This document shows, in pieces, positions 7,245 through 63,882 of a stretch of DNA of 64,000 bases; the stretch's first letter is position 1, and each line of letters opens with the position of its first letter. The translations under genes were made by a program, and so were the position numbers. The DNA is from Halichondria panicea (taxonomy: Eukaryota; Porifera; Demospongiae; Suberitida; Halichondriidae). The notes beneath the pieces are model-generated. The model was not told the origin of the DNA, ran no database searches, and saw nothing but the letters and a program-made list of their open reading frames with translations. Where the stretch lies: positions 558,001 through 622,000 of the forward strand of contig NC_087382.1 of NCBI RefSeq assembly GCF_963675165.1, written 5' to 3'.

Positions 7245-8652
7245 GGTCTCCCTTCCAGAGAGTTGCTCACTTTGAAATGGAGAAGAGGAAAAGACATGCC
7301 AATCAAGATGAGTGGCTCGATACAGAGTGTTGTTATCGGTGACACGGTGTATGTTGGTGGAGGGCTTGCAGTCAATGATCATGATATGTGTACAGTGATG
7401 AAGCTCGAGCAAGATCAATGGACCAAACTACCAGAGTACACTTCCTATTGGTTCGCTATGACATCACTCGCTAATCGACTAGTGCTGGTGGGAGGACGTG
7501 ATCCAAAATCCTGCAATCAACTTTCTATCTTTGAGTCAGGGGAATGGGCTCATCCGTACCCACCAATGAACATTGCTCATTCTTCCTCAACAGCTGTCTC
7601 CTTCAACAACCACATCATTGTAGCTGGTGGGCGTGATGATAAAGACAAGCGTATCTCCTCTGTGGAGGTGTTGGATGTGGCATCAAGAAGATGGTACATT
7701 GCTCAGTCACTACCTCACCCACGATCAACACTGAAATCAACTCTCATAGGAAACACCCTCTACCTAATGAGAGGGAGCGATTACACTGAAAGGGCAACTA
7801 AGACAGTGCACCACGTCGACCTCAATGAACTGATTGCAAAGACCCTTTCCAACTTGGACACATCCACTCTCTGGCAGACCTTACAAGAAGTACCACTCAA
7901 GTTCTCAGCTCCTCTCAGTATTGGGAGGTCACGATTAGCCGTTGGTGGACGGGACGGCCGAGGCAGCCCAAGTTCATCGATCCACCTCTACCATCCTGAC
8001 ACCAGGAGGTGGGTGAAAGTGGGAGACCTGCCTACTGCACGATACAACTGCACATGCTCAGTACTTCCTAGTGAAGAGGTCATTGTAGCCGGAGGACATG
8101 CAAACACTGATTACATTGAAATTCACTGCAAAAAATTTTGTTTGAAACTACATTGCATAATCGTTTTAACATTATTCTTAAACAGTTGAATCAACTTAAT
8201 ATTTAGTAAAATAAAAAGACAACGTTAAAATAATCAGTATATGTGGTTTTAACTTAAAATATTGTAGAATCACACAATGTCTTTTATTTCTACAATAATT
8301 TACATAGAATCTATTATTGATATCTTAAATCAAACTAACAAACTCATTTTGATTAAATTATATTTGAAACTCTATCATGCAGCATGTTAGAATACAATAT
8401 ATAAATTTAGATTTAACAATAATAATATTAATTTTGTTCTAACACAGGCACACATATAATTATATACAATCAATATTTTTAACAATCCATTTATAATAGC
8501 ATGAGTGATGTGAAATTATATACAGTCATGAACATTGTAAGCAAGTTTGCATAGAACCATAGATATTAGAGGACCTAGAGAAACTAAATGAAATTGTGGG
8601 CGTGGCTATGCTAAGTCTAAGATTGCGGGACATTTGCTGCTATAAATCTGAC

Positions 8653-8910
8653 TGTGATGATACTTCTGTGAGAGGTGAGGGACAGACATGAAGTGTTCTC
8701 AACAGTATAATTATAAAACTTTAATAGGTATGACTGTGACTCGACTACACCAAGTGGATGATGATACTTCTAGTTCTGTGAGAGGTGAGGGACAGACATG
8801 AAATGTTCTCAACAGTATAATTATAAGGCTTTAATAGGTATGACTGTGACTACACCAAGTGGATGATGATACTTCTGTGAGAGGTGAGGGACAAACATAA
8901 AGTGTCTAGT
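8653..8910. repeat. Tandem repeat, about 100-110 bp unit, 2.3 copies
   Basis: GAGGTGAGGGACA recurs at 8672, 8782 and 8881, with TTCTCAACAGTATAATTATA and AATAGGTATGACTGTGAC between. It lies in the AT-rich spacer after K1 (8190-9472), in which I recognise nothing else. Confidence 0.75.
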
Positions 8911-17989: not shown

Positions 17990-18105
17990 TAGTACGTATA
18001 GACACTCAATCAATACAACTAGTAGCTAGAGCAAATTTTAGGAGGGTGGGAATTGGAGCTAGAGGAGGGGATATCCCCCTTCCCCCCCACCCCTCTACAA
18101 AATAG

Positions 18106-19680: not shown

Positions 19681-22600
19681 ATGGCTGCAATGTTTTCTCT
19701 TCAAGATGACGCCAACTTGAGGGAGTTTGTGCTGGAGAATGTGGAGCACTTTGGAGATGAGAGAGTTCTAGGAACTGGCTCTTATGGCTCTGTTCAAGAG
19801 GTCAGTCACTGCATGCTCTGTTTCTGTGCACTGTCTCTAGTGTATCTGCTAGCTAGCTATTCAAGTGTGACTGCCTCCATGCACAGGTGATGATCAATGG
19901 TGAGGTGTATGCAGCCAAGAAGATCCACGAGGTTCTCCTGGAGACGGACGAGCGTGGTGGAGTGGCCAACATAGCTGGGAACTACCACCGAGAGTGTCGA
20001 CTCATGGCTCGCATCCGTCACCCCAACATCACCCAGTTCATTGGGCTGTGTTTCGTGACTGGCTCTCGACTGCCCCTCCTGGTCATGGAGAGGCTGGACT
20101 CAAGTCTGGACAATCTCCTGGAGTCCACTCCCAACATCCCCCTCTCTGTCTGCCAGTACATTCTGGTCTGTGTGGCTCGAGGGCTGCTCCACCTGCATCG
20201 TGAGTCCGTGGTCCATCGTGACCTCACTGCCAGGAACGTCCTGCTGACGGCATCTCTGAGAGCCAAGATCACTGACTTTGGTAACTCTCGTATCGTGAAT
20301 CTGGAGCCTGGTCGACTGGCCAGGACTCTGACAAGGTTTCCTGGGACACTGGTGTACATGCCGCCCGAGGCCCTCTCTGACAGAGGCCACAGTGTGTACG
20401 GACCCAGTCTGGACGTCTTCTCTTTCGGAGTGCTGCAATTATTTGCACTCACACAAGTATGTTATTCGTTGGTAAATTCCTATAATTGTTGATGACCTTC
20501 ACTCCTAATTACATATTCATACACTTAATCAGTACTGTGGTATATATGTAGATTCCTCTAAATGGTTGACCTTTTACTTGCAGCAAATGCATTGTGTACC
20601 AGAGGAGATAACGATAGGCGCGGTGCAGCTCAGGCAATTAGCCTTTGATTGAGCAATAATTATCCGCCCACGTCGTATGTTTTTGCTGAGAGTAATCAAA
20701 GGCTAATTACTTGAGCTGCACCGCACCTGTCGGACCTCCTCTGATTGTGTACTAATGGAATGATTGTGACACATGTACACTTCATACATACGTACATACA
20801 TGCAATCATGACACTCAGTATTGACATGCTCTTCCACTCCAGGTGTTTCCAGGAGATCTCCTTGCCCCCACGTACAGCGACCCCAACAACCCAGACCACC
20901 TCCTGGCTCGCTCAGAGTTTGAGCGTCGAGGTCTCTACACGGCTCTCCTTGAGAGGAGTCTGGCGGGTGGACGTGAACACCCTCTGTTTGGTCTGGTGAG
21001 GGAGTGTTTGGCCAACACCCCAGAGAGAAGACCGACCACCGCTGAGCTTCTCTCGTCTCTGGAGGAGGTGGGGAGGGAGATGGAAGGAGGACTGCTCCAG
21101 CTGGACATTGCACGAGTGAAGACTGCCAGGACCCTCAGGGCAAAAGAGAAGAGGATAGAGGCTCTACAGGTGAGTCCAGTCCAGTGCGCTAGTGGGTGCA
21201 AGGGTCTGACACTGCATGCTGTACTCTGTTCTCATGCAGAGAGAGGTGGTCGAGAAAGACAGGATACTGGAGAGGAAAGATGAGCAACTTGTACAGAAAG
21301 ACGATCAACTGGATCAGAAAAACGCACTTCTGGTACAAAAAGATGAGCAAGTAGCGGACAAAGATACTCAACTTGCTAGACAGCAACAGGTCAGTAGAAT
21401 TTTTACTTCACTTTTTACACGCAATTTCGTATTATGTTAACCATGCAAGTTAATAATTTCTCTTCATACAGATATTGAATAGTGTCCGTGCTGATGCTGC
21501 CACTAAAGATGGTGTGATTGCTGACAAGGACAGACAACTCAGTGAACAAGAGTCAAGGATAACTGATCTCATTTCCCAGAGAGAGGCTGCTCTAGTTGAG
21601 AGGGACGCTCTCTTACAGGTATTATAGTAGTCACCAAATGCACACACTCTTGTACTCTAGTAATGTACATGAGTGCAGAATTGTCCACTGATACAATAAT
21701 AATATTCATGTCTGTGTTCTAATTAGAAGATTTCCACCAACGTTCCCCTGTACAGGCACACGGGGTACAGATGGAACACAATACTGAGCTGGTCAGGAGA
21801 GACGCCATCATTCAACAGCAGAGACAGGTGAGATGAATCCATATTATTGCGGAGCTATAGTAGAAGCTTTGATGTTATAGTTTTGTACATTCTAGTGGAC
21901 TGGTGGTCTTCACCTCTTAAGCTTCAGTATAGCGGGTAATTTTTGGGGGGCAAAATATTCGTGGTTCAGCCATTTTGAGACATTTCGTGGGTAATACTTT
22001 CATGGTTGCTGCTTGTACTGCAAGTAAAGGTAGGCAAGGTCGCTTCATTCGTACAATATTCGTGGCCAGACCTTCAATCAGAAAACCATGAATATTTTGC
22101 CCCACGAAATTACCCTCCATACGATAATTAGAAAAAGTGATTTAGTGTGCATACAATTATTGCTACAAGTAACACTCGCTTGTTAGTAGACACTATCCTA
22201 ATTACACTCATTCATTATTCAGGGTCCCCCTCCCAGAGAGTTGAGACCTCCACTCACTCTGAAATGGAGAAGAGCAAAAGACATGCCGATCAAGATGGGC
22301 TACACAGTACAGAGTGTTATTATCAGTGACGCGGTGTATGTTGGTGGAGGCAGTGCAGGCGATGATTGTAACGTGTGTACAGTGATGAAGCTCGAGCAAG
22401 ATCAATGGACCAAACTACCAGAGTACACTGCCAAGTGGTTTGGTATGACATCACTCGCTAATCGACTAGTGCTAGTGGGAGGACGTGATCCAAGAAACAA
22501 CACACCCAGCAATCAACTTTCAGTGCTTGAGTCAGGGGAATGGACTCACCCGTACCCACCAATGAACATTGCTCGTCAATCCTCAACAGCTGTCTCCTTC

Positions 22601-23143
22601 AACAACCACATAATTGTAGCTGGTGGGCGTGATGGTGATGGTCGTATCTCCTCTGTGGAGGTGTTGGACGTGGCATCAAGAAGATGGTACATTGCTCAGT
22701 CACTACCTAACTCACGATCAGAACTGAAATCAACTCTCATAGGAAACACCCTCTACCTAATGGGAGGGTACGATCACACTGGGCCAACCAAGACAGTGCA
22801 CCACGTTGACTTCAATGAACTCATTGCCAAAGCCCTTTCCAACTCGGACACACCCACTCTCTGGCAGACCTTAGAGGAAGTGCCGCTCGAGTTGTCAGCT
22901 CCTCTCAGTATTGGGAGGTCACTATTAGCCGTTGGTGGAGCGAACGACAGAGTCAACCCAAGTTCATCGATCCACCTCTACCATCCTGACACCAGGAGGT
23001 GGTTGAAAGTAGGAGACCTGCCTACTGCACGATACTGCTGCACATGCTCAGTACTTCCTAGTGGAGAGGTTATTGTAGCCGGAGGACAGATACTAAATAA
23101 GATTAAAATCCAAACTGTGGATTTCTTCTCTATAAGTTCTTAG
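19681..23143 (+). CDS. K2: kinase-coiled coil-Kelch protein, intact
   Basis: Seven phase-0 exons: 19681-19800, 19887-20456, 20843-21169, 21240-21389, 21472-21618, 21756-21827, 22223-23143, about 768 residues. The kinase domain (about 25-300) has glycine loop GTGSYGSV (31-38), Lys51, helix-C Glu76, HRDLTARN (150-157; this loop form is typical of tyrosine kinases), DFG 170-172 and the PPE motif 199-201. Exons 4-6 (340-462) are a heptad-like charged coiled coil rich in ERKDEQL and QKD repeats. Residues 463-768 form six Kelch repeats; the starting strand TLKWRRAKDMP probably closes blade 6. I see no signal peptide or membrane segment, so the protein is probably cytosolic. The start is the first ATG after the conserved promoter box. 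Introns 2 and 6 each hold a MITE. A role as a Kelch-directed kinase is inferred from domains only; substrate unknown. Confidence 0.85.
20600..20743. mobile_element. 144-bp fold-back MITE with 9-bp target duplication (K2 intron 2)
   Basis: The two halves are inverted copies (CAGAGGAG..., GCGGTGCAGCTCA, AATTAGCCTTTGATT). It is flanked by ATTGTGTAC at 20591-20599 and 20744-20752. The matching place in K1 intron 2 (about 3432-3445, CAGTGTGTACTAATGGA) is empty. Confidence 0.85.
21925..22120. mobile_element. MITE with CAGTATAGCGGGTAA-type ends (K2 intron 6)
   Basis: Inverted ends CAGTATAGCGGGTAATTT and AAATTACCCTCCATACG enclose GGCAAAATATTCGTGGTT and its inverse. The homologous introns of K4 (37830) and K6 (62858) read CTTAAGCTAATTAGAG without it. 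The TA flank is degenerate on the left. Confidence 0.75.
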
Positions 23144-27080: not shown

Positions 27081-27293
27081 ATGTGCACAGTAGTCAAAGA
27101 AAGAGGGCGTCTCTCGTGAAGTTGCTCTGGTGTTCTCCTCCGCTAACCTCACTGTGTATCATCATGCTGTGATCAGAATGCTGTAGCCTCTGGGGATATT
27201 ATCAGTGAGGGCAGACAATTAACTGTGTATGGATGTGCTAGATAATTGCTTTTTGCCATACAGCTTTTTTGTATTCCACACTATACAGAAAAG

Positions 27294-30200
27294 ATGTCTG
27301 ACTATCTCACAATAGAAGATCTTAAGAAAGTGTACCTAGTCACGTTTGATGCTCGAGTTAAGTGGCGAAACATTTTGCTTGTTCTTGACGTATCCCCGGC
27401 TACTATCAACAACGTAGGTACGAAATGGCGTGACAATCCTGATGACTGCTATCGTGAGGGACTGTCAGAATGGCTAACGGGTGGGGAGAGAAGCTGGGAA
27501 GATGTGATGGGGGCATTGTCTAGTCCTATTGTGGGCTTCAGTTACATAGCCCAGACCATCGAGAGAGATCATCTACAGTCTACTGATGTGAAGTCAGAGG
27601 GTACGTATAAGTACCAATTAATTGAGCTGGAATTCATATTGTATAATGTTTGTTAGCAATCTTTCCTATAATCCCATGATCACTGTTAATTCACTGCCTC
27701 ACCCACTCACCTTCCCCACACCCTACAGTTGACCAAAATCACCAAAAGATCAATGAAGATTTGACCATTTTCCTAGACGAGCCACTCGGTAGTGGTGCAT
27801 TTGGAGCAGTCTTCAAAGGCAGCTACAGAGGCGATCCTTGTGCTATCAAACTATTACATCAGGTTGCTATGGAGATGCAGACAAATATTCCCGCCACCAA
27901 AAGTGAAGATGCTAGCAATGCAATTGATCGTGAGAGTGATTTTCTCAAGTCGTTCCAGCACCCAAACGTTGTTCAGTTTTTGTCGACTGCTAAGCACCCC
28001 AAATCAGGTGGTACAATCCTCGTTGTTGAGCTGATGGATTGCAATCTGAGATCCTATTTTTCTGGCCTTGATGAAGAGCCCCTCTCTAGCGAATGTGAAA
28101 TTAGCCTCTCCAAAGACATGGCTTGTGGTCTGGCCTACATTCACAGCAAGCAGATTATCCACCGTGACCTCTGTGGCGATAACGTCTTGCTGAAGCTGAC
28201 ACTGCCAGTGCCTGTTGCAAAGATTTCTGACTTTGGTATGTCGCGACTATACGATCCCTCCAAGCTTAGCTCCACCCTCACAGCCATTGGTCAGCGTAGA
28301 GGGTATCTACCTCCCGAGGCCTATCGATTAGAAGAGGAGAATTACGATAATAGCCTGGATGTGTTTTCCTTTGGGGTGATTTTGACGCAGATTGTTTGCA
28401 AGTTAGAGACGATCAAATCAGCCAAGGATCGATCATTCCATGTTGCCCAGATCCCTCACACACACAGGTTGAGAAAGCTTATTGACAGCTGTTTGCAAGA
28501 AGACATGACGAGGAGACCATCTGCCAGGGACATCTGTGAGTCTATTAGATACTGTATAGCGCGGATTTCGTGGGTTAGCAATCCTACACAAAAATTAAGT
28601 CCACGAAAATTGTTCTTTAATTAGAATTATCTGCTATAACGTGCAAAGATTTAAAAGCTTGGCTTCCGGTAAGCAGTCATTCCGCGAACATTGTGTAACG
28701 AAATGCTTTTAGAGGCCATTCCACGAAAATTTCGCACTATACGGTACCAAGAGTACATTAAGAGGAGCGTCCAACTGTAGCAGTTGAAGTGTAAACCAGG
28801 TTATGGTAGGAGCATGTCATACCACGTCACTATCAGACCACATCTTAAGTGGGTGCGTAGGTGTAGCGGTTATTAGATATCAGCACACACACACGTGTGG
28901 TTTGTACCTCCAGCCCACATTTAGTTTTATTCATGGCTAACAGTTTACACAACTACAAGTGTTAGTGATGGATTCAGTCCTAAGATGTAAAATGGAATGC
29001 ATGTGCGTGAGAGTTGTATACTCTTTAGACAGTACTCAGTATATTGTATGTGCGTAGCGCGAGGGACTGGCAAACTGCCTATCAGATTGCTCAGCGTCAT
29101 ATTAGCCCTGTAATTGTAACCACACTTACACTTCAGGGGATTCAATACATTCCATATATAGTAGCTGAATCTCATAGCAAAATTTAACCACATTATCTAT
29201 AATGATATTCATGTTTGGTAGTATCGTTTGATTTATACACTTCTGCTGAGACGAGTGACGTATAGGCAGTTGGCCATGCAGTCGCTTGCGCGTATCGCCG
29301 CCAGTCTAACTCCTCTTAATGTACTCCTGACAGTACCTAGTGCATGATAATATATTATGCTTCTGAAAAATGTGTCGATTTTCCTTTTAATGTTTAATTC
29401 TTACTTTTAGATGTTTCACTGACAAGAGACTCGGACTCAGTGGAGGCAACAAAGAGGGAAACTCTACCAGTCGAAAAGGTGCGTACATGTAGTGTGTGAA
29501 TGAGAATCCTAATAACAACAAAACTTAGGGTTTCATTGTTAAGTCTGTTTCATTATAGCTATAAGTAACACTCTCTTGTTATTAGATCATGTTTGTCATA
29601 AATACTGCAATCTGATTGGTTAGAGGAAATGTTCTATCCAATTTAGAAAATCATGTACTTCAATAGAAAATCATGTACTTCACTTAGAAAATCATGTAGC
29701 AAAGATTAGATAAGAACATTCAAATCTGATTGGCTAAATACTCATGGTTGCTATGATCTAAAATGCTTAGACACTGTTTAGGAAGTTTCCACATGATTTA
29801 GAAGTCCTCAGGGCTAGTAGAACCCTCACTGCGTTCGGGATACTACAACCAGCCCTTTGGGCTTCTAAATTATGTAGAAACTTCCTAAACAGTGTCTAAC
29901 TATTATGTAGACACTATCCTAATTACACTCATTCATTATTCAGGGTCCCCCTCCCAGAGAGTTGAGACCTCCACTCACTCTGAAATGGAGAAGAGGGAAA
30001 GACATGCCAATCAAGATGGGTGGCTCTGTACAGAGTGTTGTTATCGGTGACACGGTGTATGTTGGTGGAGGGAATACAGACAATTTTCATGACGATCGTA
30101 CAGTGATGAAGCTCAAGCAAGATCAATGGACCAAACTACCAGAGTACACTGACCATTCCTTCGCTATGACATCACTCGCTAATCGACTAGTGCTGGTGGG

Positions 30201-30852
30201 AGGACTTAATGTAGGAAACACAAAAGTCACCAATCAACTTTCTGTCTTTGTGTCAGGGGAATGGAACAACCGTTACCCACCAATGAATATTGCTCGTTAC
30301 TTCTCTACACCTGTTTCCTTCAACAACCACATCATTGTAGCTGGTGGGCGTGATGACGAAAAATATATCTCCTCCTCTGTGGAGGTGTTGGACGTGGCAT
30401 CAAAGAGATGGTACATTGCTCAGTCACTACCTAACCCACGATCAGAACTGAAATCAACTCTCATAGGAAACACCCTCTACCTAATGGGAGGAGCAACCAA
30501 GACAGTGCACCACGTCGACCTCAATGAATTCATTGCAAAGGCCCTTTCCAACCTGGACACACCCACTCTCTGGCAGACCTTACAGGAAGTGCCGCTCGAG
30601 TTTTCAGCTCCTCTCAGTATTGGGAGGTCACTATTAGCTGTTGGTGGACAGGACGACAGCGACAACCCAAGTTCATCGATCCACCTCTACCAGCCTGACA
30701 CCAGGAGGTGGGTGAAAGTGGGAGACCTGCCTACTGCACGATACTACTCCACATGCTCAGTACTTCCTAGTGGAGAGGTCATTGTAGCCGGAGGACAGAC
30801 ACAACTATTTGGTTACATTCAAACTGTGGACTTATTCTCTATAAGTGCTTAA
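27294..30852 (+). CDS. K3: Death-kinase-Kelch protein
   Basis: Coding exons: 27294-27600, 27729-28535, 29411-29478, 29944-30852, about 696 residues. A non-coding 5' exon ends near 27205 (donor GTGAGG). Residues 1-95 are a Death domain (MSDYLTIEDL, VKWRNILLVL, DPDDCYREGL). The kinase (about 115-375) has GSGAFGAV 123-130, Lys143, Glu171, HRDLCGDN 237-244, DFG 260-262 and PPEA, a TKL-like set. A 23-codon linker (TRDSDSVEATKRE) leads straight to six Kelch blades; the coiled-coil exon of K6 is missing here. The kinase exon is phase 1 at both ends. Death followed by kinase is the order of IRAK/Pelle; adding a Kelch tail is unusual. Likely cytosolic signalling protein. A 193-bp MITE starts 16 bp after the kinase exon donor. 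The reading frame is intact. Confidence 0.85.
28552..28744. mobile_element. 193-bp MITE next to K3 kinase exon donor
   Basis: Ends CTGTATAGCGCGGATTTCG and CGAAAATTTCGCACTATACGG are inverted copies, flanked by TA (28550-28551 and 28745-28746). K6 lacks it at the same point (TTAGATACGTAGTGC). Confidence 0.8.
28751..29330. mobile_element. Possible TIR element in K3 intron (GAGTACATTAAGAGGAG ends)
   Basis: GAGTACATTAAGAGGAGCG near 28751 and its inverse ACTCCTCTTAATGTACTC near 29311 bracket about 580 bp absent from K6. No target duplication was identified. Confidence 0.5.
29768..29898. repeat. Fold-back sequence in K3 pre-Kelch intron
   Basis: TAGACACTGTTTAGGAAGTTTC at the left pairs with GAAACTTCCTAAACAGTGTCTA at the right, with an inner inverted pair around ATTTAGAAG. 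Just upstream, AAAATCATGTACTTCA occurs about three times (29648-29700). Confidence 0.7.
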
Positions 30853-39621: not shown

Positions 39622-39623
39622 TA

Positions 39624-41587: not shown

Positions 41588-41862
41588 ATATTTTTGCTCA
41601 AAAGGGGGAGTATCTTGTAGCTCAGTAGCTGTTATAAGTACGCGAGGTTAAGTACATGTAGACATGTGTTGTACATGTACGTACGTAGACTACATGTGTA
41701 TTAAATTTGAAGAAGATGTAGCCTCTGGATTATTATCAGTGAGTACAGACTAGACAGCACTGTATACTGTAGATCTTTAGTGTAGTAATCATTGCACACT
41801 CCCAATATAAACTATGCTCATACATTTCACTGCAATATCTTATTCCACACTCTACAGAGAAG

Positions 41863-44800
41863 ATGTCTGACACTTACCTCACAATAGCAGATCTAGGAAA
41901 ACTATACATAGCTACGTTTGATGCTCGAGTGAAGTGGCGAAACTTCTTGCTGGTTCTTGAGATATCCTCAGATACTATCGACAGTATAGGTACGAAATGG
42001 CGAGATGATCCTGATGACTGCTATCGTGAGGGTTTGAAAGAATGGCTGAAAGGTGGGGAGAGAAGCTGGGAAGATGTTGTCAAAGCATTGTCTAGTCCTA
42101 TTGTGGGCCACGTTCACATAGCCAGGACCATCGAGAGAGATCATCTACAGTCTAGCAATCCTACTGATGTGAAGTCAGAGGGTAAGTACCAATTATGCAC
42201 CTATCAATGCAAACCCCCACCCCCCCCCCCCCTCCTGGGATAGGGTGGGGCATTTGTAAGTCATTTGATTCCCCTGGGGTGGGGCTTTTGTAATTAAGTT
42301 TGTATACTCAGCAGCCACAAGTCAGTATACTATAATTTTAACTTCTAGTTCTTTTTTATAACCTCCCACTGGCATGTGTACATGTAGCTCTTTGGAAGGA
42401 ACAAACAGCCAGTATAGAAAGCTGGATCACTTGTGATTGCTGGAGCTGTGGTTTCATTGAGTTGAAATAGAACCACAGACTTACTATTGTATACAGAGTG
42501 TACTCCATAATTATGTGCTATGTTGTTTATTCTTTGTGACTGTGTCAAATCCCGTGGGTTAGGGGAGGGGTATTTGTAGTGCTTTAGTACCGTAGAAACT
42601 GAATTATTAGCGCATGCGCTTTTGGGGTCAATAGCAGAGCTCTATACGCTTATATTCGAGAATGCGCCTATAATGCAGTCATTTCGAGCCCCACCCAGCA
42701 ACCGGATGTCTCTGTGATGAGTGCTGACTCGCAAGCTAGCTAGAAAGTGAGCAAGCAAGGCAAGCAGGCAACCCTAACTGGATCTATATCATACTATTAT
42801 GTTACAGTTCATTTTACAGTTCATTTACATCATTTTAAATTGACCAGGAACTTGCATAATTGGAAAAGCGCTTCAATTCGAGTATAAAAAGCCTGCCGTT
42901 GAGCATGTGCTTAAAATAAAGATACGCTTATAGTCGAGTAAGCGCTAATAATCCAGTTTCTACGGTAGTGTATTTGTACTGAAAACTACCCCCCTGAAGA
43001 GGGGGGTTTGCAACTCCCAGTGTCAAATCCCCACCCTATCCAGGGAGGGGGGTGGGGATTTACATTGATAGGTGCATTAATGCATCTATATATATGAACG
43101 ATATGCCCCACCCCCCTCCCCCCCACCTAGGGTTATTAGTATCGCAACCTAGGGTTATTAGTATCGCAAGCCACACCCCTTCACTCGAAGAAGGGTCAGA
43201 CAACAGTGTGATATTGACCATTCTACTATATTGACCATATTGACCATTCCACTACATTTCCCTCACGTGCTCCCCAGGTGGTGGGGTATATCATTGATAG
43301 GTGCATAACTTAATGATACGTAGTTTGTTAATTAGTATAATTATTTCACTACATTACCACTCCCCCACCTACACACATTGTTCTGTACAGTTGACCAAAA
43401 TTTAGCACTATAAAGTACCTAGTGCATGATAATTATGTGTTTTACGCTTCCGAATAATGTGTCGATTTTCCTTTTAACGTTTAATTAGATGCTTCACTGA
43501 CAAGAGACTCGGACTCAATGGAGGCAACAAAGAGGGACACTCAACCAATCAAGAAGGTGCGTACATGTAGTGTGTGAATGAGATTCCTAACTGCAGCCAC
43601 AAACAACAGCACTGTACCTCAGGGTGCTGTTTCATTATAGCTATAAATAAGTAACACTCGCTTGTTATTAGATCCCACTTGTGTGTGTTTAGCAGGGAAT
43701 TATGAGCCATAATCTCATAGTTTCCCAGGGAATTATAAGCTTGAGGGTATAAAGTACAAGTATAATTTTTTGAATGTACAGAAATGATAATAAAGCTGTA
43801 GCTGTATGATAATTAGCTATGGCTATTCAGTTTTTTCACTACCAGTTTCTATAGCGTTTGCTGGGTTTATGGTAGGGTTCACCAGTATCTTTTCTTGTCC
43901 GCCAGTCTACGAGGAACACTAAGAGCCAATGATTTTAACTGCATGTTCTGGGTCCATTGTCACAAGCATGAAAGCATGTCTTCAACTAAGTAGCATTTGT
44001 CAACTTCGTCCTCCTGACTTCTGTTTCTAACAGCCATGTTTCAAAATAGGTAGACTCCTGGGAACAATATAGTGCACTGTAGCATTGCTGCAAGCTGTTC
44101 CTTGCTGGCTAGCGTACAGATCAGAACAGTTTACTGAGAAGCTTGAGCTGGGGTGGGGCTTGAGTGCAGAGAAAAGAGGAGGCTGGGCTCAATTGTTGCA
44201 GAGTGCTTCCTGCACAAGGTGGAGACACTAGTTTGTCCATTCCAATGTTGAAGCAAGGCCAATGCAAAGGTTTTTAGCAGAGAAGCAGAACTCATCTAGC
44301 TTGTCAGAACAGGACATTTTCAAAACTAAAGCTGTTGCTAAGGCTCGCTGCTTTTATAGATACACTTCTTGCCTGAGGCAGCCAATGAAAAGTGGGATCT
44401 AAATTAGTTAGCACATGTGCATTCGGTATCTACACTGCAAAAACACTTTTGTTAATTTAACAAACAAAAGTTTGTCCCGGTGATGAATCTCACATGACAG
44501 AATAATATTTGTTAGAATGACAAAGGTAAAACAACCTACAATGTTTTGTCATTCAAGCAAAGAAATTATGTCAAAACAACAAAGTATTATGTCATCTGAA
44601 TTTCACCAATTTATTGTACTTCTATGTCAAAATAGCAAAGTGAATGCTGAATTAACACTGGTATAAAGTGAATTTCTTTGTTAAATTAACACTATACCTT
44701 TGTCATTTAATTAGTTGTTTTCTCGCGCACGTACGCACATGCAGAAGGTCAAACGGTATTAGAACAATGAGTTTATGATAGAATAAGATCACTGGATCAC

Positions 44801-47800: not shown

Positions 47801-49644
47801 AACGATCTATGAAATTTACAAGCTCACATAAAGACTGTTCATTACTGCTAATTCTATTTTAGCTATACTATACTTACACTACTGATATTCTAGCTATACT
47901 ATACTACTTACTAGAGTCACACAGTGAGCCCTCTCCTAGTCTTTCACCGTCCTGGTCCATAGCTAGCGTCTAGGTCCATGTCATGCATGTCATCAGTCCC
48001 AGACAGTTCATCAGCGTCTGGCATAAAGCTGGTAGCCTTTGGGAGGTATCCTACTATCCCCTCTCCTTCATAGGCACTGTCATCACCAGAGGAGACATCG
48101 CCATTGCTGTCCTCAAGCTGTTCAAGCACATCGGCACAAGTAAACAATCTAGCCATAGCTATAAACTTCGTGCGGTAAGATGCTAATGAAATTTTAACAT
48201 AGCAACGTGGCTTGGAAAATTCTAAACTAAATTGCACGTGATTCTACAGCTCTTCCTCTATACAGGGATGTGCGTAGTTCGAGCTACTTCCTAAGTATCG
48301 CAGAATTAGAATTTCGCAAAAAAAGTCACTTATTGCGGGCCACGATCGTGGCCCGTGGCGGTTAAAGGGTTAATGTTAATTTGACAATGAACGGTAACTT
48401 CCACTAAATGTGAGATCAACAACGCTTCGACAAAATAACAACACATGTGTTCAAATAACAATCTACCATTATAATAACAAATATTAATAGTTAGATAAAC
48501 TATATTAATAGTTAAATAAACTATGATTTGTCGTTATAACAATAATTGCAGGAAATTGACAAACGTTTTGTCAAGATAACATTTTGTGCCGGTAGCAAAC
48601 TGTGTCACAATAACAAAAGTGTTTTTGCAGTGTATGTGTTATAGTGTCCCTCATCCCTCGGGCTTCACATAGATACCTCATGCCCGTGTACTATCTATAA
48701 CGTAGACACTATCCTCATTCATTATTCAGGGTCCCCCTCCCAGAGAGTTGCCACTCACTCTGAAATGGAGAAGAGGAAAAGATATGCCAATCAAGATTGG
48801 CTACACAGTACAGAGTGTTGTTATCGGTGACACGGCGTATGTTGGTGGAGGCAGTGCAGACAATTATCGTAACATGTGTACAGTGATGAAGCTCGAGCAA
48901 GATCAATGGACCAAACTACCAGAGTACACTGCCAAGTGGTTTGGTATGACATCACTCGCTAATCGACTAGTGCTAGTGGGAGGACGTGATCCAAAAAAAA
49001 ACACACCCAGCAATCAACTTTCAGTGCTCGAGTCAGGGGAATGGACTCACCCGTACCCACCAATGAACATTGCTCGTCAATCCTCAACAGCTGTCTCCTT
49101 CAACAACCACATAATTGTAGCTGGTGGGCGTGATGGTGATGGTCGTATCTCCTCTGTGGAGGTGTTGGACGTGGTATCAAGAAGATGGTACATTGCTCAG
49201 TCACTACCTAACTCACGATCAGAACTGAAATCAACTCTCATAGGAAACACCCTCTACCTAATGGGAGGGTACGATCACACTGGGCCAACCAAGACAGTGC
49301 ACCACGTTGACCTCAATGAACTCATTGCCAAAGCCCTTTCCAACTCGGACACACCCACTCTCTGGCAGACGTTAGAGGAAGTGCCGCTCGAGTTGTCAGC
49401 TCCTCTCAGTATTGGGAGGTCACTATTAGCCGTTGGTGGAGCGAATGACAGAGTCAACCCAAGTTCATCGATCCACCTCTACCAGCCTGACACCAGGAGG
49501 TGGTTGAAAGTAGGAGACCTGCCTACTGTACGATACTGCTGCACATGCTCAGTACTTCCTAGTGGAGAGGTTATTGTAGCCGGAGGACAGATAGTAAATA
49601 AGATTAAAATCCAAACTGTGGATTTCTTCTCTATAAGTTCTTAG
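41863..49644 (+). CDS. K5: Death-Kelch protein lacking the kinase exon
   Basis: Coding exons 41863-42181 (Death; MSDTYLTIADL, VKWRNFLLVL), 43489-43556 (linker ASLTRDSDSMEAT) and 48730-49644 (six Kelch blades), about 433 residues. Where K3 and K6 have an 807-bp kinase exon, K5 keeps only its acceptor and 11 bases (CAG then TTGACCAAAAT, about 43390-43400). These are fused to sequence that in K3 and K6 lies in the next intron (GTACCTAGTGCATGATAA). Because the kinase exon is phase 1 at both ends, the Death exon (ends G) joins the linker (starts AT) in frame. The relic acceptor, if used, would give an early stop. The final intron is 5.2 kb and packed with transposons. The Kelch exon is close to that of K2. 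Expression unproven. Confidence 0.7.
42590..42965. mobile_element. 376-bp MITE (CCGTAGAAACTG ends) in K5
   Basis: CCGTAGAAACTGAATTATTAGCGC and GCGCTAATAATCCAGTTTCTACGG are inverted ends, flanked by TA on both sides. It lies in the interval left by the lost kinase exon, together with C-rich low-complexity tracts at about 42213-42236 and 43103-43126. Confidence 0.85.
43671..44399. mobile_element. 729-bp TIR element in K5 intron
   Basis: GATCCCACTT and AAGTGGGATC form short inverted ends flanked by TA. The insert begins exactly where the K3 intron also departs from the shared GTAACACTCGCTTGTTA sequence. No coding capacity recognised. Confidence 0.6.
44985..46345. repeat. Minisatellite, 91-bp unit, about 15 copies
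   Basis: CCATGGACGAAG recurs at 45022, 45107, 45198, 45289, 45380 and so on to about 46277, mostly 91 bp apart, with one shorter unit near 45549. Each unit contains GACCAGTCGAAACCAGTGTA and GAGGACACATACACACAAAC. Units fall into at least two variants (CTCGTAAATCAGTATG and CTGGTAAATTACAATG), which cluster, as expected from local amplification. Cysteine-rich repeat frames on the minus strand are by-products. Confidence 0.95.
47046..47081. repeat. 36-bp perfect-arm palindrome
   Basis: TAGTCTCGAGGCC and GGCCTCGAGACTA are separated by 10 bp. It is similar in size and plan to the nearby 47106-47152 element but has no target duplication that I can see. Confidence 0.6.
47106..47152. mobile_element. 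47-bp miniature TIR element with 9-bp target duplication
   Basis: GCTCGATCCCAGGCC at the left and GGCCTTGTGAAGGAGGCTA at the right, flanked by TAGAGAGAA (47097-47105 and 47153-47161). The left end lacks the first bases of the TAGCCTCG consensus. Confidence 0.75.
47454..48369 (-). mobile_element. piggyBac-like non-autonomous element, 916 bp
   Basis: Ends CCCTTTAACCG and CGGTTAAAGGG directly abut TTAA on both sides (47450-47453, 48370-48373), the target site and CCC start typical of piggyBac. A minus-strand frame from the ATG at 48156 to about 47947 (MARLFTCADVLEQLEDSNGD, then an acidic stretch) resembles the acidic N-terminus of piggyBac transposases. No catalytic domain remains. A second minus-strand frame at 47508-47777 may be another remnant. 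Confidence 0.75.
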
Positions 49645-57700: not shown

Positions 57701-58377
57701 AGTATGAGAACATGGAACTGGACAAGGGGGTGTGGCAATGGGGGTGTGCTGCTCTAAACTATAACATTTGTGGACTCTGTCAAGAGCTGCTTTAAGGAAA
57801 AGATGTAGCTCTATGGAATGTGGTACGTGTTTGTTTAGCTAGTGGATCTGATTTTAATCAAGACTTGCACAGTATGCATGTATACGTATGTGCTGTGTCA
57901 GCAGAAACCTTGAAGACCCATACGATAACTTGAATGACCAATTTCCAGTTTAAAAAATGTATTCAGTAACTTTTAGGTTTATAGTGTGTTTAGCTTTAGC
58001 ATCAAAATGACCAAACTAAAGGACTTAACTTAATACTGTTGTAGCTCTTCCTAAAATTGCTTGTATAATTATCGTGTTTGAAATGAAGAAGTCATCACAC
58101 TTTGTGTCTACTACCGTATTACTACTGCAATGTTTTAATTACGAGTTTCAAACACTTGAGAATTTCGTGAGTGCTTATGACATCGCTAAAATAAGATTGC
58201 AAATACCTATACCAGTACTTGTATGATAATAGCACGATCTTTCCTATTGAAAAGTTTCAAATGTTTCCTCAATCGTAAAGGCTTTTAAATTTGAACTCTG
58301 CACCCAGGCACATTGTTACAGTAGCAGTACAGTATCTTAATGTACAGTGTGTATTCTTGTAGTATGGCAATCCAAGG

Positions 58378-59120: not shown

Positions 59121-59281
59121 TGTTTTCCGATGTTACATTAAAAAGAAACTATACAAACTAGCTTGAAATAATCAAGTCTTGTGTGTTGCATAGGAGTGCA
59201 TGAATGCGTGGTGACAGTTGTATATTATTATCTTCCCACAATCATCTAAGTTGTGTCATGTTTGTTGTCTTGTAATCTCCG

Positions 59282-59292
59282 GCGCATGCGCA
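59282..59292. promoter_or_regulatory. NRF1-type palindrome upstream of K6
   Basis: GCGCATGCGCA followed by GAGGGCATGTCTTGTAG at about 59314, in the same relative place as in K3. The non-coding first exon follows and ends near 59418 (ATTTCA then GTGAGT). Confidence 0.4.
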
Positions 59293-59538
59293 GTATACCA
59301 ATGTGCAAGGAAAGAGGGCATGTCTTGTAGTTCATGAGTGTTGTTTGGTTTGTCTGCTGTTCCCTGGCCCTACTAGCTGGTGAAATCAAAGGGAAGATAC
59401 TGTAGCCTCGACATATTTCAGTGAGTGCAGACAGCACTGCATGTGTACTGTATAGGTACTGTACATGATTTACTTTAGAGCTGTGCACACCTATGTACTC
59501 CCTCCTATAAAGCATTCATTCCACACTCTACAGAGAAG

Positions 59539-62500
59539 ATGTCTGACTATCTCACAATAGCAGATCTAAACAAAGTGTACCTCGCTACGTTTGAAGCTCG
59601 AATCAAGTGGCGAAACATCTTGTTAATGCTCGAAGTCTCTGCAGCTACAATCAGAAGTATCAGCAAAGAATGGAACAATGATCCTGATGACTGCTATCGT
59701 GAGGGGCTGTTGGAATGGCTGAATGAAGGAGAGAGAAGCTGGCAATCTATGGTCAAAGCATTGTCCAGTCCTACTGTGGGCCACATTCACATAGCCAGGA
59801 CTATCGAGAGAGATCATCTACAGTCTAGCAATCCTACTGATGTGAAGTCGGAGGGTGAGTACCAATTAATTCACCTAGCTATATAAATGATATGCCCCAC
59901 CTAGGGCGATTAGTCTTGCAAGCAAAGAAGGGTAGTGTCAAAATATTGACCATTCCACTACATTTCCCTAATGTGCTCCCCAGGTGGTGGGGGAGGAGAC
60001 ATATTATTGATAGGTGCATAATTATGTCTAAAAATAGTTTACATACCGTATAGCGGGTATATTTTGAGCGTATAAAAATGTTCGCGGTTTTCGCGGATTG
60101 AGCCTGTATCGCAAAAATTTATGAATAGTAGGCGTGTTCAGTATTATTGACCACACCTATGACAATAAGAGGTGCCTCACACAGGCTAGGCCTGGATTTG
60201 AGGCTAACGGTGTGGAGGTACAGCTGCATGTTGATTAGCCTAGATCCCAGGCCGAGTTTTCGCTTTTATAACGGTTAGGCGAACAACTGGGCCTGGTACT
60301 AGTTGTCTGCGCATGCGTCAGTCGTTCGTCAGATTCTGACGAATGGATATTCTCGTTCACTTTCGTGACATTTATATTCGTGTACTATCGTGTACTAGAA
60401 GTCAGTTCCCGTTTTATCATTATTGGAATGGCTCTTAGCTGAAGCTTCTCTCTTCTCTGAAGCTTAGAAAACATTATTCTGAAGACTGAACAACAAGGGA
60501 AAAGGTATAAAGCTTTGTCAAGCTTGTTAAGGTCAGATATTTTTGTGTGGGCCCTATGCTATCATGTCAAGTCGTGTTCATGTTTGGTATTAAAAGATCT
60601 ATAGTATCATCATTAATATGGTGGATCAAGTGAAGAGTGTGAGCTAGAGAACTTGGTGCTGCCATCATCAGCTCGTCGACAATGACACTATAACCTGTTT
60701 AATACGAGAAATTTAATATGTACATGTATACAGTAGATCTACACGTATTTTGAATGTCTACTTCTCTGTACAGGAGCAATGGCTACTATCCAGCTATCCC
60801 AACATTGTTCCTCTTGGCCATACTAACGGACAAGACTGGACAGTTTAAGGTAAGGGTTTAACCGTGTTTGGTTTCTTTAATATTGTCCTATACTTACAGG
60901 ACTGGAGTATGACCTGATCGTTCGAGTGTTGCTGGGTAGCTCAGAGGCATCAAGAAAATTTACGTTTTCTCAAGCAAAGTTTAACTGAGTTACAAGTTGG
61001 GGCCTAGAATCAGAGAAGTCCAGCAGCCTGCTAAATCGTTGAAACGTAATTTGAAGGCATTCAATCATCTTGAAGTTGCCCTGGGTCACTGTAATCGTGC
61101 TGCAGCACAACTGGCAGCTCCCCAGGCCCTTGTGAAGCAGCTCCCTATGTGCATCTTTTGTGTACTCACTCACTCTGTGCATTTTCTGTGTACAAATTTC
61201 AATTATTGATTTATTAAATATCTTTGCCGACCACAAATACAATGAAAATTTGACGCATGCGCAGACAACTAGTACCAGGCCCAGTTGTTCGCCTAACCGT
61301 TATAAAAAGCAAAAACTCGGCCTGGGATCGAGGCTACATGTTGATGTGCGCATGCGCCAAAAGGCTGGAACTCAGACCACGAAAATAAATCCGCGAAATC
61401 CTTTGTAATGGTCCATCCGCGAAAATTTATACCCTCGAAATATACCCGCTATACTGTAGTCATTCCTTACTAACCACTCATCCCACCCCACACACATTGT
61501 TCTGTACAGTTGACCATAATCGTCAAAAGATCAATGAAGATTTGACCGTTTTCTTAGACGGGCCACTCGGTAAAGGTGCATTTGGAGCAGTTTTCAAAGC
61601 CAGGTACAGGGGCGAGATTTGTGCAGTCAAAGTGCTGCTTCACGATGCTATGGAGATGCAGGCAAGTATTGCAGTTGGCAAAAATGAAGATGCTAGCAAT
61701 GCAATTGATCGTGAGAGTGATTTTCTCAAGTCGTTCAAGCACCCAAACGTTGTGAAGTTTTTGTCGACTGCTAAGCACCCCAAATCAGGTGGTACAATCC
61801 TCGTTGTTGAGTTGATGGATTGCAATCTGAGATCCTATTTCTCCGGCCTTGATGAAGAGTCCCTCACTAGCGAATGTGAAATTAGCCTCTCCAAAGACAT
61901 GGCTTGTGGTCTGGCCTACATTCACAGCAAGCAGATTATCCACCGTGACCTCTGTGGCGATAACGTCTTGCTGAAGCTTACACTGCCAGTGCCTGTCGCA
62001 AAGATTTCCGACTTTGGCATGTCACGGCTTTACGATCCCTCCAAGCTTAGCTCCACCCTAACAGCCATTGGTCAGCGTAGAGGGTATCTACCTCCTGAGG
62101 CCTATCGATTGGAAGAGGAGAATTACGATAATAGCCTGGATGTGTTTTCCTTTGGGGTGATTTTAACGCAGATTGTTTGCAAGTTAGAGACGATCAAATC
62201 AGCCAAGGATCGATCATTCCATGTTGCCCAGATCCCTCGCACACACAGGTTGAGGAAGCTTATCGACAGTTGTTTGCAAGAAGACATGACGAGGAGACCA
62301 TCTGCCAGGGACATCTGTGAGTCTATTAGATACGTAGTGCATGATAATTATGTGTTTACGCTTCCGAAAAATATGTCAAATTACTTTTTAATGTTTAATT
62401 CTTACTTTTAGATGCTTCACTGACAAGAGACTCGGACCCAATGGAGGCAGCAAAGAGAGAGACGAAGGACACTCAACTAGTCAAGAAGGTGCGTACATGT

Positions 62501-63882
62501 AGTGTGTGAATGAGATTCCTAATAACAATAGTACTGTACCCTAGGGTGCTGTTTCATTGTAAAAAGCATGTTAAGTTTTGTTACGTAATTCTTTAGAAAG
62601 ATTACTATAGTACTGTAAATACTTGTACAATTGTGATATTCACGTCTTTTTCCTACCAGCGTTCCCCTGTACAGGCACACAGGGAACAGACTGAGCACAA
62701 AGATGCTGAGCTGGTCAGGAGAGACGCCATCATTCAACAACAGAGACAGGTGATATGAAATGCAACACTCTAATTATTTTTGCAGAGCTATAGTAGAAGC
62801 TTTGATCTGTTATAATCGTACTGTACATTCTAGTGGACTGGTGGGCGTCGCCTCTTAAGCTAATTAGAGAAAGTGATTTAGTGTGCATACAATTATTGCT
62901 ACAAGTAACACTCGCTTGTTAGTAGACACTATCCTAATTACACTCATTCATTATTCAGGGTCCCCCTCCCAGAGAGTTGAGACCTCCACTCACTCTGAAA
63001 TGGAGAAGAGGAAAAAACATGCCAATCAAGATGGGCACCTCAGTACAGAGTGTTGTTATCGGTGACACGGCGTATGTTGGTGGAGGCAATGCAGACAATG
63101 ATCTTGACAAGTGTACAGTGATGAAGCTCGAGCAAGATCAATGGACTAAACTACCAGAGTACACTGCCAAGTGGTTCGCTGTGACATCATTCGCTAATCG
63201 ACTAGTGCTGGTGGGAGGACGTTATCAAAGAAACAACAAAGTCAGCAATCAACTTGCCGTCTTTAAGTCAGGGGAATGGACTCACCCGTACCCACCAATG
63301 AACATTGCTCGTAATTCTTCAACAGCTGTCTCCTTAAACAACTACATCATTGTAGCTGGTGGGGTTGATGATGAAGGACGTATCTCCTCCTCTGTGGAGG
63401 TGTTGGACGTGGCATCAAGAAGATGGTACATTGCTCAGTCACTACCTAACCCACGAGCAGTACGACAATCGACTCTCATAGGAAACACCCTCTACCTAAT
63501 GGGATGGTTCGATCACACTGGGGAACCAACCAAGACAGTGCACCACGTCGACCTCAATGAACTCATTGCAAAGGCCCTTTCCAACCTGGACACACCCACT
63601 CTCTGGCAGACCTTACAGGAAGTACCACTCGTGTTGTCAGCTCCTCTCAGTATTGGGAGGTTACTATTAGCTGTTGGTGGAGCAGACGACAGAGTCAACC
63701 CAAGTTCATCGATCCACCTCTACCAGCCTGACACCAGGAGGTGGGTGAAAGTGGGAGACCTGCCTACTGCACGATACCGCTGCACATGCTCAGTACTTCC
63801 TAGTGGAGAGGTCATTGTAGCTGGAGGAGAGACCAAAACTTTTTACGTTCAAACTGTGGACTTCTTCGCTATGAGTGCTTAG
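59539..63882 (+). CDS. K6: Death-kinase-coiled coil-Kelch protein
   Basis: Coding exons 59539-59854, 61510-62316, 62412-62488, 62675-62749, 62959-63882, about 732 residues. Death domain (MSDYLTIADLNKVY, IKWRNILLML, DPDDCYREGL), then a TKL-like kinase with GKGAFGAV, AVKV lysine, HRDLCGDN, DFG and PPEA, a 26-codon linker, one coiled-coil exon (EHKDAELVRRDAI, the same as exon 6 of class A genes), and six Kelch blades ending VQTVDFFAMSA. This is the fullest class B gene and shows that the coiled-coil exon is shared by both classes. The first intron (1.65 kb) holds two nested MITEs. Frames are open throughout; all exon borders are GT-AG. The Kelch exon differs from K2 and K4 mainly at the propeller-face positions and in loops after the GG pairs. 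Confidence 0.85.
60046..61456. mobile_element. MITE (CCGTATAGCGGGTATA ends) split by a second element
   Basis: Left CCGTATAGCGGGTATATTTTGAG and right CTCGAAATATACCCGCTATACTG are inverted ends with TA flanks (60044-60045, 61457-61458). Without the inner 1,101-bp element and its duplicated target, it would be about 300 bp. Related to the MITEs at 17795, 21925 and 28552. Confidence 0.85.
60236..61336. mobile_element. 1,101-bp TIR element nested in a MITE, 9-bp target duplication
   Basis: Inverted ends of about 85 bp: TAGCCTAGATCCCAGGCCGA... with GTTAGGCGAACAACTGGGCC and ACTAGTTGTCTGCGCATGCG on both arms. Target duplication CATGTTGAT at 60227-60235 and 61337-61345. Same TAGCCTCGATCCCAGG end family as the 36-47-bp miniature elements. 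The interior has no recognisable transposase. Confidence 0.9.

Follow-up and report, generated by a model that had tools for sequence, protein, structure and literature searches.

Hypervariable recognition domains are known in immunoglobulin and zinc-finger folds. Among Kelch proteins, the KLHL type carries BTB/BACK heads. In the WD40 and LRR folds, hypervariable recognition domains are described in the available passages of PMC1805685 and PMC8226289, respectively. According to the parts of PMC1805685 at hand, the selected codons of the NACHT-WD40 proteins of Podospora anserina (HNWD family, het-d/het-e) lie in the strand d-to-a loop and the b-c turn, on the interaction face. In stimulated sponges, single Kelch-motif genes changed, their architecture being unstated in the passages available (PMC6208332). 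Among the papers listed, several of the listings giving the best of many matches, no comparable hypervariable animal Kelch family with kinase heads appeared.

The window (the whole stretch of 64,000 nucleotides that was analysed) contains six Kelch exons, K1 to K6. At least 139 exons of this family are present across the 131-Mb genome, which Wnt matches indicate to be that of an animal. Two features recall the HNWD proteins: diversifying D-A and B-C loops on a predicted face, and exchange among family members.

Kelch exons and their heads

The exons of the window are the following.

2711..3232, + strand: kinase A exon of gene 1, disrupted
5832..5927, + strand: short coiled-coil-like exon of the K6 type in a kinase A gene, preceding K1 (read by eye)
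7245..8123, + strand: K1 Kelch exon, gene 1 (kinase A head)
19857..20492, + strand: kinase A exon, gene 2
20825..21283, + strand: kinase A continuation of gene 2, then coiled-coil-like exons, e.g. 21210-21440 (read by eye)
22223..23140, + strand: K2 Kelch exon, gene 2 (kinase A head)
27246..27656, + strand: death-like exon, gene 3 (weak FADD match)
27680..28624, + strand: kinase B exon, gene 3
29944..30852, + strand: K3 Kelch exon, gene 3 (death-like and kinase B head)
32733..33395, + strand: kinase A exon, gene 4
37930..38850, + strand: K4 Kelch exon, gene 4 (kinase A head)
41773..42243, + strand: death-like exon, assigned to gene 5 by order alone (Pfam Death E 0.041, below cut-off)
48727..49641, + strand: K5 Kelch exon, gene 5, with a death-like exon upstream
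59479..59886, + strand: death-like exon, gene 6
61389..62411, + strand: kinase B exon, gene 6
62654..62749, + strand: short coiled-coil-like exon preceding K6 (YQRSPVQAHREQ..., read by eye)
62959..63882, + strand: K6 Kelch exon, gene 6 (death-like and kinase B head), first sequence of the structure model

When K1 and K2 were scanned, Pfam Kelch_1 matched them with 88.1 and 93.0 bits (curated cut-off 20.1), and the 123-copy consensus has a double glycine in all six blades. A copy identical to K4 in every base is found at G000:C6:791832-792752. The family counts are lower bounds, since scoring covered 130 of 453 and 137 of 447 candidates for Kelch and 150 of 811 and 141 of 767 for the kinases. 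No internal stop was present in 136 of the 139 Kelch exons examined (two of the 136 being partial). Five exons were excluded: L040 for an internal stop, L129 and L130 as partial, and L132 and L133 for a stop near an end that had been extended. With 11 identical copies also collapsed, 123 distinct copies were analysed. All come from one genome, and the genes are known as exons.

A kinase is the head in front of most Kelch exons of the family. The heads gave Pkinase and PK_Tyr_Ser-Thr matches in the Pfam scan, and the motifs AAKK/AVKV (catalytic lysine), HRDL (HRD) and DFGNS/DFGMS (DFG) were read by eye; the best PDB matches of kinase B were CTR1, CERK1, LIMK1 and others, the tyrosine-kinase-like group being a candidate placement. 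For the kinase A continuation of gene 2 no Pfam match was obtained, and its coiled-coil-like piece matched RNase_Y_N below cut-off. Because of the in-frame stop in its kinase exon, gene 1 is possibly degenerate. No kinase match was assigned to K5 within 6 kb.

The three death-like exons are of a more tentative nature: two of them had no match to Pfam Death, the third being the sub-threshold case listed above. FADD or PIDD/LRDD made up 13 of the 14 PDB profile matches, with a best E of only 0.026, and the AlphaFold model was poor (pLDDT 59), with no fold match in Foldseek. NCBIfam was also tried, and all support for this identity was weak. Neither BTB nor BACK was matched among the upstream exons scanned, which are part of each gene's exons. 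A NACHT + WD40 architecture was absent from the parts scanned, with protein kinases as heads and a propeller of the Kelch type.

A single Kelch pool is common to the two kinds of head, namely kinase A with coiled-coil-like exons and the death-like domain with kinase B. The Kelch distance is 0.0908 within A heads, 0.0884 within B heads and 0.0900 between A and B, and the closest A-B pair differs by 5 nt in about 915. The nearest Kelch neighbour has the same head in 70 of 107 cases, for 53% by chance, so that the pool is not fully mixed.

Amino-acid and silent change across the propeller

From the letters of K1 to K6, a preliminary description had proposed that the copies differ at equivalent positions in most blades, over an almost fixed framework. 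The six exons are present and the strings quoted for blades 1, 2, 3, 4 and 6 are all as read. Its statement that blade 5 varies only between F and L was incorrect, the preceding residue, at the equivalent position, being K, E, E, K, E and V in K1 to K6. The codons concerned are given here for K6.

63037..63039, + strand: hypervariable D-A codon of blade 1 (residue 27); other blades at 63169-63171, 63313-63315, 63460-63462, 63631-63633 and 63778-63780
63088..63090, + strand: hypervariable residue after GG of blade 1 (residue 44); other blades at 63220-63222, 63364-63366, 63508-63510, 63682-63684 and 63829-63831

When K1 to K6 alone were compared (15 pairs, no tree), the six D-A codons showed 116 amino-acid and 4 silent changes (pN 0.540, pS 0.073). 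At the residues after GG, where variation had also been described, 79 amino-acid changes stood against 5 silent ones. The A-B and C-D loops had 63 and 39 (pN/pS 0.51), and the strands a pN/pS of 0.58. Over all pairs of the 123 copies, pN and pS were 0.511 and 0.094 for one codon per D-A loop, 0.531 and 0.161 for the residue after each GG, and 0.043 and 0.085 for the constrained framework; the view that an amino-acid excess is missing is contradicted. Both sets of key codons are near saturation for amino-acid change.

Furthermore, the six blades were aligned on the second G of GG. Averaged over the blades, pN was highest at offset +1 (0.538) and next highest at -16 (0.443), and it did not exceed 0.052 at any offset from -14 to 0 (123 copies). 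In 10,000 within-blade shuffles the top value was matched by none and the second by 36; a cruder count (P>0.95 at one offset in five of six blades) was matched by 508. Blade 4 has its D-A codon at -15 instead of -16.

With the exact key codons chosen post hoc, the D-A ones of five of the six blades having been named beforehand in the preliminary description, one copy per cluster (100 clusters) gave bootstrap 95% intervals of pN/pS of 3.36-4.83 for the 12 key codons and 0.50-0.59 for the framework. By subset, the ratio at these 12 codons was 4.04 for C1 copies (n=97), 4.37 for C6 and C28 copies (n=25), 4.26 for A heads (n=41) and 4.24 for B heads (n=66). The 12-residue key strings took 105 distinct forms among the 123 copies. 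As the stretch between kinase and Kelch diverges by 7-11%, the Kelch pS is not unusually low. Thus, in a ring of 12 key codons and in B-C loop codons, amino-acid change is several-fold above silent change.

The kinases of the same genes served as controls. Among the exons retrieved or lying in the window, 27 were of kinase A, of which 24 distinct ones were used, and 26 of kinase B, of which 25 were used; the K1-gene exon and L046 were left out for stops, the remainder being duplicates. Kinase A had a dN of 0.009 and a dS of 0.064 (dN/dS 0.14), for 0.091 and 0.084 in the Kelch of the same 24 genes. Kinase B had 0.070 and 0.204, for 0.097 and 0.084 in the Kelch of the same 23 genes. The gain in 2dlnL from permitting beta>alpha was 3.6 for kinase A versus 176.8 for its Kelch, and 11.6 for kinase B versus 161.4. 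Kinase A is therefore constrained, kinase B less so. The gain of 11.6 for kinase B weighs against our preferred reading.

The structure model reached a pLDDT of 82 and a pTM of 0.84. It aligned with KEAP1 over 254 residues at about 20% identity, and the 50 listed matches to solved Kelch domains had Z scores of 27.4-29.6. On this model 25 of the 26 strongly selected codons (one tree, beta>4, P>0.95) could be placed: 21 fall among the 101 codons of the D-A and B-C loops, 4 among the 147 of the strands and none among the 45 of the A-B and C-D loops (D-A and B-C loops versus the rest, Fisher p 1.4e-7). The four strand codons are strand ends adjoining the D-A or B-C loops. The key codons and the further B-C loop codons are thus predicted to lie nearly all on one propeller face. 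The site-wise dN/dS and structure mapping, run on six and on 123 copies, therefore agree with the earlier suggestion of recognition domains under diversifying selection, and an even spread over the propeller is contradicted.

Interpretation and alternative explanations

We favor, with a probability of roughly 0.72, the reading that the family is a large repertoire of sensor kinases, probably intracellular, whose genes recombine and in which the six-bladed Kelch propeller at the C-terminus serves for recognition. A recognition role of the Kelch face is suggested by the structure model and by analogy with known systems. The face would bind a diverse or rapidly changing set of ligands, and binding would alter clustering and hence kinase or death-domain signalling. 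Point mutation at the face would create new specificities, while gene conversion or unequal exchange would spread and reshuffle them and homogenise the framework. The putative use is likely innate immunity or self/non-self recognition.

More tentatively, and with somewhat less than even odds, the repertoire may be anticipatory and combinatorial: within long arrays, gene conversion would carry hypervariable Kelch cassettes from one to the other of two unlike kinase heads, giving each individual more than 100 different binding faces and two signalling outputs. If true, NLR or lymphocyte-receptor repertoires would have a Kelch-based equivalent in an early-branching animal, probably a sponge, and the family would supply candidate molecules for sponge immunity or graft rejection.

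Several points count against the sensor-kinase reading, among them the incomplete mixing of the Kelch pool, the raised pS after GG and in the B-C loops, the unreliability of P>0.95 taken alone, the post hoc choice of key codons, the weak death-domain matches and the restriction to one genome. In addition, the 16 closest disjoint pairs (at most 20 nt apart), a comparison intended to be proof against recombination, showed no acceleration, with N 5.5 and S 3.5 in the 12 key codons and zero amino-acid change in the D-A codons. The 8 pairs 31-45 nt apart gave N 68.4 and S 2.6 in the same 12 codons (by subtraction of rows).

The face may also have been diversified by selection for endogenous partners, in developmental signalling or in gamete or cell-type recognition, and not for immunity or self/non-self; we hold this to be a serious minority possibility. 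Other KLHL proteins bind endogenous substrates. KEAP1, moreover, uses this face for its ligands in the available part of PMC6891428. However, an open-ended ligand set accords better with more than 100 copies, with the weak linkage among residues of the face and with heads of the kinase or death-like type, and the fungal HNWD family, selected in the same loops, is described in the passages of PMC1805685 as a non-self recognition system.

A little less probable is that the face carries long-retained variants and has not undergone repeated adaptive change; its codons would then be older than the rest, the framework having been homogenised by conversion while selection blocked conversion at the face. 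Since pS is raised after GG (0.161) and in the B-C loops (0.142), at 1.7-1.9 times framework pS, part of the excess may indeed reflect older lineages spared homogenisation. In the same direction, pairs with a framework pS of 0.02-0.03 differ at a mean of 7.2 of the 12 key residues, and pairs with pS <0.01 at 0.1-1.3. The pS is, however, inflated by path counting in saturated codons, and that of the D-A codons barely exceeds framework despite their high pN, so that age alone cannot explain the excess.

Much less likely is an artefact in which gene conversion disrupts the single tree and thereby mimics positive selection. The Kelch copies do exchange sequence: six segment trees fitted far better than one tree (lnL -17,070 versus -20,304, extra branches not penalised), and r2 between sites dropped from 0.056 to about 0.03 over roughly 100 bases. 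Because the copies recombine, tree-based site tests over-call. In the real data, P>0.95 was reached at 48 of 305 sites with one tree and at 41 with segment trees. In six-tree simulations without positive selection, the one-tree analysis reached it at 35 (neutral) and 11 (purifying) sites and the segment analysis at 0 and 0; in neutral simulations where copies exchanged freely at intervals of 10 or 5 codons, the segment analysis did so at 48 and 54 of 305. As these neutral counts are as high as the real 41-48, P>0.95 site counts were abandoned as a measure. Ordinary dN/dS tools are thus misleading for these recombining copies, and reliance was placed on beta>4 and on tree-free pN/pS. With segment trees, P>0.95 and beta>4 were reached together at 21 of 305 real codons and at 0 in four sets simulated without positive selection (one neutral and one purifying on six trees, and the two neutral free-exchange sets). 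Furthermore, within-codon pN/pS needs no tree, exchange seldom splits three adjacent bases, and the strong sites keep blade register and share one face. The tree-free contrast and the strongest sites therefore hold up despite recombination.

Even less credit can be given to relaxed constraint, i.e. neutral drift at tolerant loop positions. Kelch B-C loops are long, length-variable and often variable, and the mean dN/dS of the whole Kelch domain (0.99) is by itself compatible with drift. However, pN is 3 to 5 times pS within the same codons, and neutral drift cannot surpass the silent rate; the key-codon pN is also far above the divergence of the neighbouring stretch, the opposite-face loops are conserved (A-B pN 0.028, C-D pN 0.052), and internal stops are nearly lacking from the family.

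A mutation mechanism directed at the key codons, whether adenine mutagenesis of the retroelement type or a local hotspot, is just as improbable. In its favor, codon bases 1 and 2 are near saturated whereas base 3 hardly varies (in blade 1, 120 of 123 copies have C), but third-base amino-acid steps make up 37 of 272 single steps (13.6%) versus 15.8% expected from opportunity (minimum codon networks of 23 such codons, 6 multi-base edges excluded), the commonest third base changes from site to site, each of the four bases being represented, and pS is 0.107 in codons adjoining the key ones versus 0.098 far off. The target of a diversity-generating retroelement (adenine-derived, NNY-type) was rejected on these third-base steps, near expectation, and on all four third bases being common.

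Comparison with known recognition systems

The sensor-kinase family resembles highly variable plant NLRs, which in the available passages of PMC8226289 are immune receptors with variable residues clustered on a predicted binding surface; there, however, the fold is LRR and not a propeller, and the diversity is among individuals' alleles. The sponge Dysidea avara, likewise an early-branching animal, has expansions of NLRs into large families of intracellular receptors, death domains being present in some (PMC12909245); these are NACHT-LRR proteins, and its abstract leaves Kelch-kinase genes unmentioned.

KEAP1 and the KLHL proteins share the six-bladed Kelch fold, to judge from the model (Z 27.9 to KEAP1), but the heads here are kinases and the identity is about 20%. 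In the part of PMC6891428 available, the KEAP1 ligand contacts 334, 478, 525 and 572 are spaced like the residues after GG, and contacts 363, 414, 508, 555 and 602 like the D-A residues, the match being made by spacing and by the first aligned residues. This agrees with the earlier claim that the counterpart positions of Keap1 line its ligand face.

The closest likeness is to the HNWD proteins, for which the passages of PMC1805685 describe a propeller recognition domain selected in the same two loops, concerted evolution with exchange between genes, a homogenised framework and a signalling head. That family has WD40 repeats, a NACHT-type head and 10 genes in a fungus, whereas here Kelch, kinases and at least 139 exons are found in an animal. 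In addition, HNWD genes exchange single repeats, whereas the six Kelch blades are unlike in sequence and exchange between genes seems to involve stretches of the Kelch exon. A small residue set and a gene family are pinpointed for immune and allorecognition work, and the fungal choice of two propeller loops recurs here in another fold and kingdom.

Kelch exons, their heads and their arrays

The window corresponds to C6:558001-622000 of a genome of 131 Mb and 39 contigs, probably that of an animal, as it contains Wnt matches. Two genome searches combined gave at least 139 Kelch exons: 104 at C1:15.48-17.39 Mb, a further 25 at C6:0.47-0.80 Mb, 4 on C28, 3 at C1:11.0 Mb and 3 elsewhere. K1 to K6, the Kelch exons of genes 1 to 6, are on the plus strand of the window, each of about 300 codons in a single open frame; Kelch was called by Pfam in K1 and K2, the two exons scanned. 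Two kinds of head were found upstream. Genes 1, 2 and 4 carry a kinase A head followed by exons read by eye as coiled-coil-like, and genes 3 and 6 a death-like exon with kinase B. In gene 5 a death-like exon is present, and no kinase match was assigned within 6 kb upstream. The same short exon, of coiled-coil-like type, was read ahead of both K1 (A head) and K6 (B head).

Gene 1 is possibly degenerate (window 2711-3250 and 8100-8189), with an in-frame stop inside the kinase match and, at 8100-8189, a K1 frame end unlike the common C-terminal end of the family. The Kelch exon of gene 5, within window 41773-49641, and those at C6:501400, C6:659785, C6:798496 and C28:12827 differ from one another by at most 5 bases; each has death-like matches a few kb upstream and no assigned upstream kinase match, and the group is possibly a third architecture. 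Between the genes lie the following features:

10216-12360, minus strand, between K1 and K2: broken transposase-like frames with one below-cut-off DUF5575_C match
51758-55204, with 55111-56272, minus strand, between genes 5 and 6: transposon-like large open frame; its matches to an Ulp1-type protease and P-element-HTH exceed the cut-off, and one to a PHD finger falls below it

Among the matches listed, kinase A gave 48 at 84-100% identity to the query, the next falling to 52%; for kinase B, 110 matches at 73-100% identity, among 141 listed, were used for head assignment. The nearest head within 6 kb upstream of the 139 Kelch exons was A for 44 and B for 75, with 20 unassigned. In protein, the kinase A copies listed are 93-100% identical to the query (except one at 84%) and the Kelch copies listed 78-85% identical to K3, so that the contrast in conservation was already apparent before modelling.

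The C1 array consists of two arms of opposite orientation (15.48-16.13 Mb, minus; 16.71-17.39 Mb, plus). Base-identical Kelch exons are common to both arms, owing either to an assembly effect or to recent exchange or duplication from one arm to the other. The kinase arrays at C3:0.87-1.71 Mb (at least 44 matches) and C11:4.4-6.5 Mb (at least 25), 46-52% identical to kinase A, are further kinase expansions, and C12:5.90-6.14 Mb holds an array of at least 17 death-like matches that are more distant, at 38-48% identity.

Amino-acid change on the propeller face

In all, 133 stretches were fetched; five exons were left out and identical ones merged, and the 123 distinct Kelch sequences were aligned over 305 codons. 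Mean pairwise dN and dS were 0.098 and 0.099 (3,000 sampled pairs). For 24 genes, kinase A gave dN 0.009 and dS 0.064, and their Kelch exons 0.091 and 0.084; for 23 genes, kinase B gave 0.070 and 0.204, and their Kelch exons 0.097 and 0.084.

The mean Kelch dN/dS of about 1 conceals two regimes. In the within-codon comparison over all pairs of the 123 copies, which is independent of any tree, pN and pS were 0.511 and 0.094 at six codons of the D-A loops, 0.531 and 0.161 at the six codons following each GG, 0.291 and 0.142 at 45 B-C loop codons, and 0.043 and 0.085 at the other 254 codons. Bootstrap ranges, and splits by array and by head, were consistent with this result. The 12 key codons (D-A and after GG) were chosen after the first site scan, with the list of the preliminary description as a guide; compared with the remaining positions, theirs are enriched in Arg, Tyr, Gln, Glu and Phe. 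With the six blades aligned on GG, mean pN was 0.443 at offset -16, 0.326 at -15, 0.538 at +1, 0.099 at +2, 0.121 at -17 and 0.22-0.38 at +3 to +8, and did not exceed 0.065 at any other offset scanned. The proposal that paralog differences fall on equivalent positions of most blades within a nearly fixed framework is thus borne out, by the peaks at -16 and +1 and the low pN of the 254 other codons.

A structure model was predicted from the six window Kelch sequences (pLDDT 82, pTM 0.84). Its strands, in an order of our own reading, form a six-bladed propeller closed by the N-terminal strand, matching KEAP1 with Z 27.9 (254 residues aligned, model 35-307 against KEAP1 325-588). The preliminary description had placed the variable sites on one face. 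When 25 of the 26 strong sites of the one-tree analysis were mapped on the predicted model, they clustered there, in the D-A (6/47 codons) and B-C loops (15/54), with none in the A-B (0/15) or C-D loops (0/30) and 4/147 in strands. These four (residues 88, 95, 168 and 184) are at strand ends beside D-A/B-C loops, and three are register residues. The weaker segment-tree sites off the face (residues 74, 207, 298 and 304) are no more than neutral data could yield.

KEAP1 contacts in the accessible part of PMC6891428 include 334, 478, 525 and 572, and 363, 414, 508, 555 and 602, spaced by about 47 like the two key-codon series; 415, 462 and 556 each fall one residue beyond a D-A position, and 483, 530 and 577 are five residues beyond a GG+1 position. 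The correspondence is based on residue-number arithmetic and the alignment start, not on a printed residue alignment.

Sequence exchange and alternative explanations

Kelch copies exchange sequence. Six segment trees were about 3,230 log units better than one tree, extra branches being unpenalised, and r2 between Kelch sites reached its floor within about 100 bases. Tree-based site tests therefore over-call. Data simulated on six trees and analysed on one gave 35/305 called sites (neutral) and 11/305 (purifying), and none by segment analysis; when neutral data were simulated so that exchange was free every 10 or 5 codons, 48 and 54 sites were called by segment analysis. No site with an amino-acid rate (beta) above 4 occurred in any of these simulated sets, and the real data gave 21 on segment trees (maximum 10.2) and 26 on one tree.

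Two results count against positive selection at the face: the 16 closest disjoint Kelch pairs gave no face acceleration, and pairs of very low framework pS have few face differences, the jump to 7-9 of 12 coming at framework pS 0.02-0.04. Recent copies may be too young, or duplicates unfixed, to display acceleration; alternatively, the framework of older copies may have been homogenised and the face spared, and part of the face signal would then be long-kept diversity. A low-silent-rate artefact was rejected, since divergence of the kinase-to-Kelch stretch (introns and small exons) is about 7% in A genes and 11% in B genes. Aimed mutagenesis was rejected on the third-base amino-acid steps (37/272, 13.6% against 15.8% expected). 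So was neutral drift: pN is higher than pS within the same codons, and loops on the opposite face are conserved.

Kelch distance was 0.0900 between A and B, 0.0908 within A and 0.0884 within B, the A/B excess being matched or beaten in 66/999 label shuffles. In 625/702 A-B pairs the sequence immediately preceding the Kelch exon contains a shared stretch, with a median length of 518 bases and 87.8% identity; the Kelch exons of the closest A-B pair differ by 5 bases. Nearest neighbours had the matching head in 70/107 cases, hence some structure by head. The 12 key residues form 105 distinct strings among the 123 copies (summed entropy 32.5 bits), with little information between sites (0.63 bits vs 0.51 shuffled).

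Putative function and related systems

The Kelch kinase products are most likely cytoplasmic sensors, since no signal peptide was seen by eye at either probable start (MSDYL... ahead of the death-like domain, MAAMF... ahead of kinase A); further exons may lie upstream. Binding of a ligand to the Kelch face would induce clustering and, in turn, kinase or death-domain signalling. Specificity would be altered at face residues, and gene conversion would spread Kelch cassettes across loci and across the two heads.

The fold is ordinary among Kelch proteins; to our knowledge, neither the heads nor the hypervariability follow the KLHL pattern. In working mode, the family comes nearest to HNWD of Podospora. 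In the accessible part of PMC1805685, the selected HNWD codons occupy two loops, d-a and b-c, of a WD40 propeller whose repeats are in concerted evolution, and those of the Kelch family are in the same two loops. The Kelch family nevertheless stands outside HNWD, with kinases instead of NACHT and Kelch instead of WD40.
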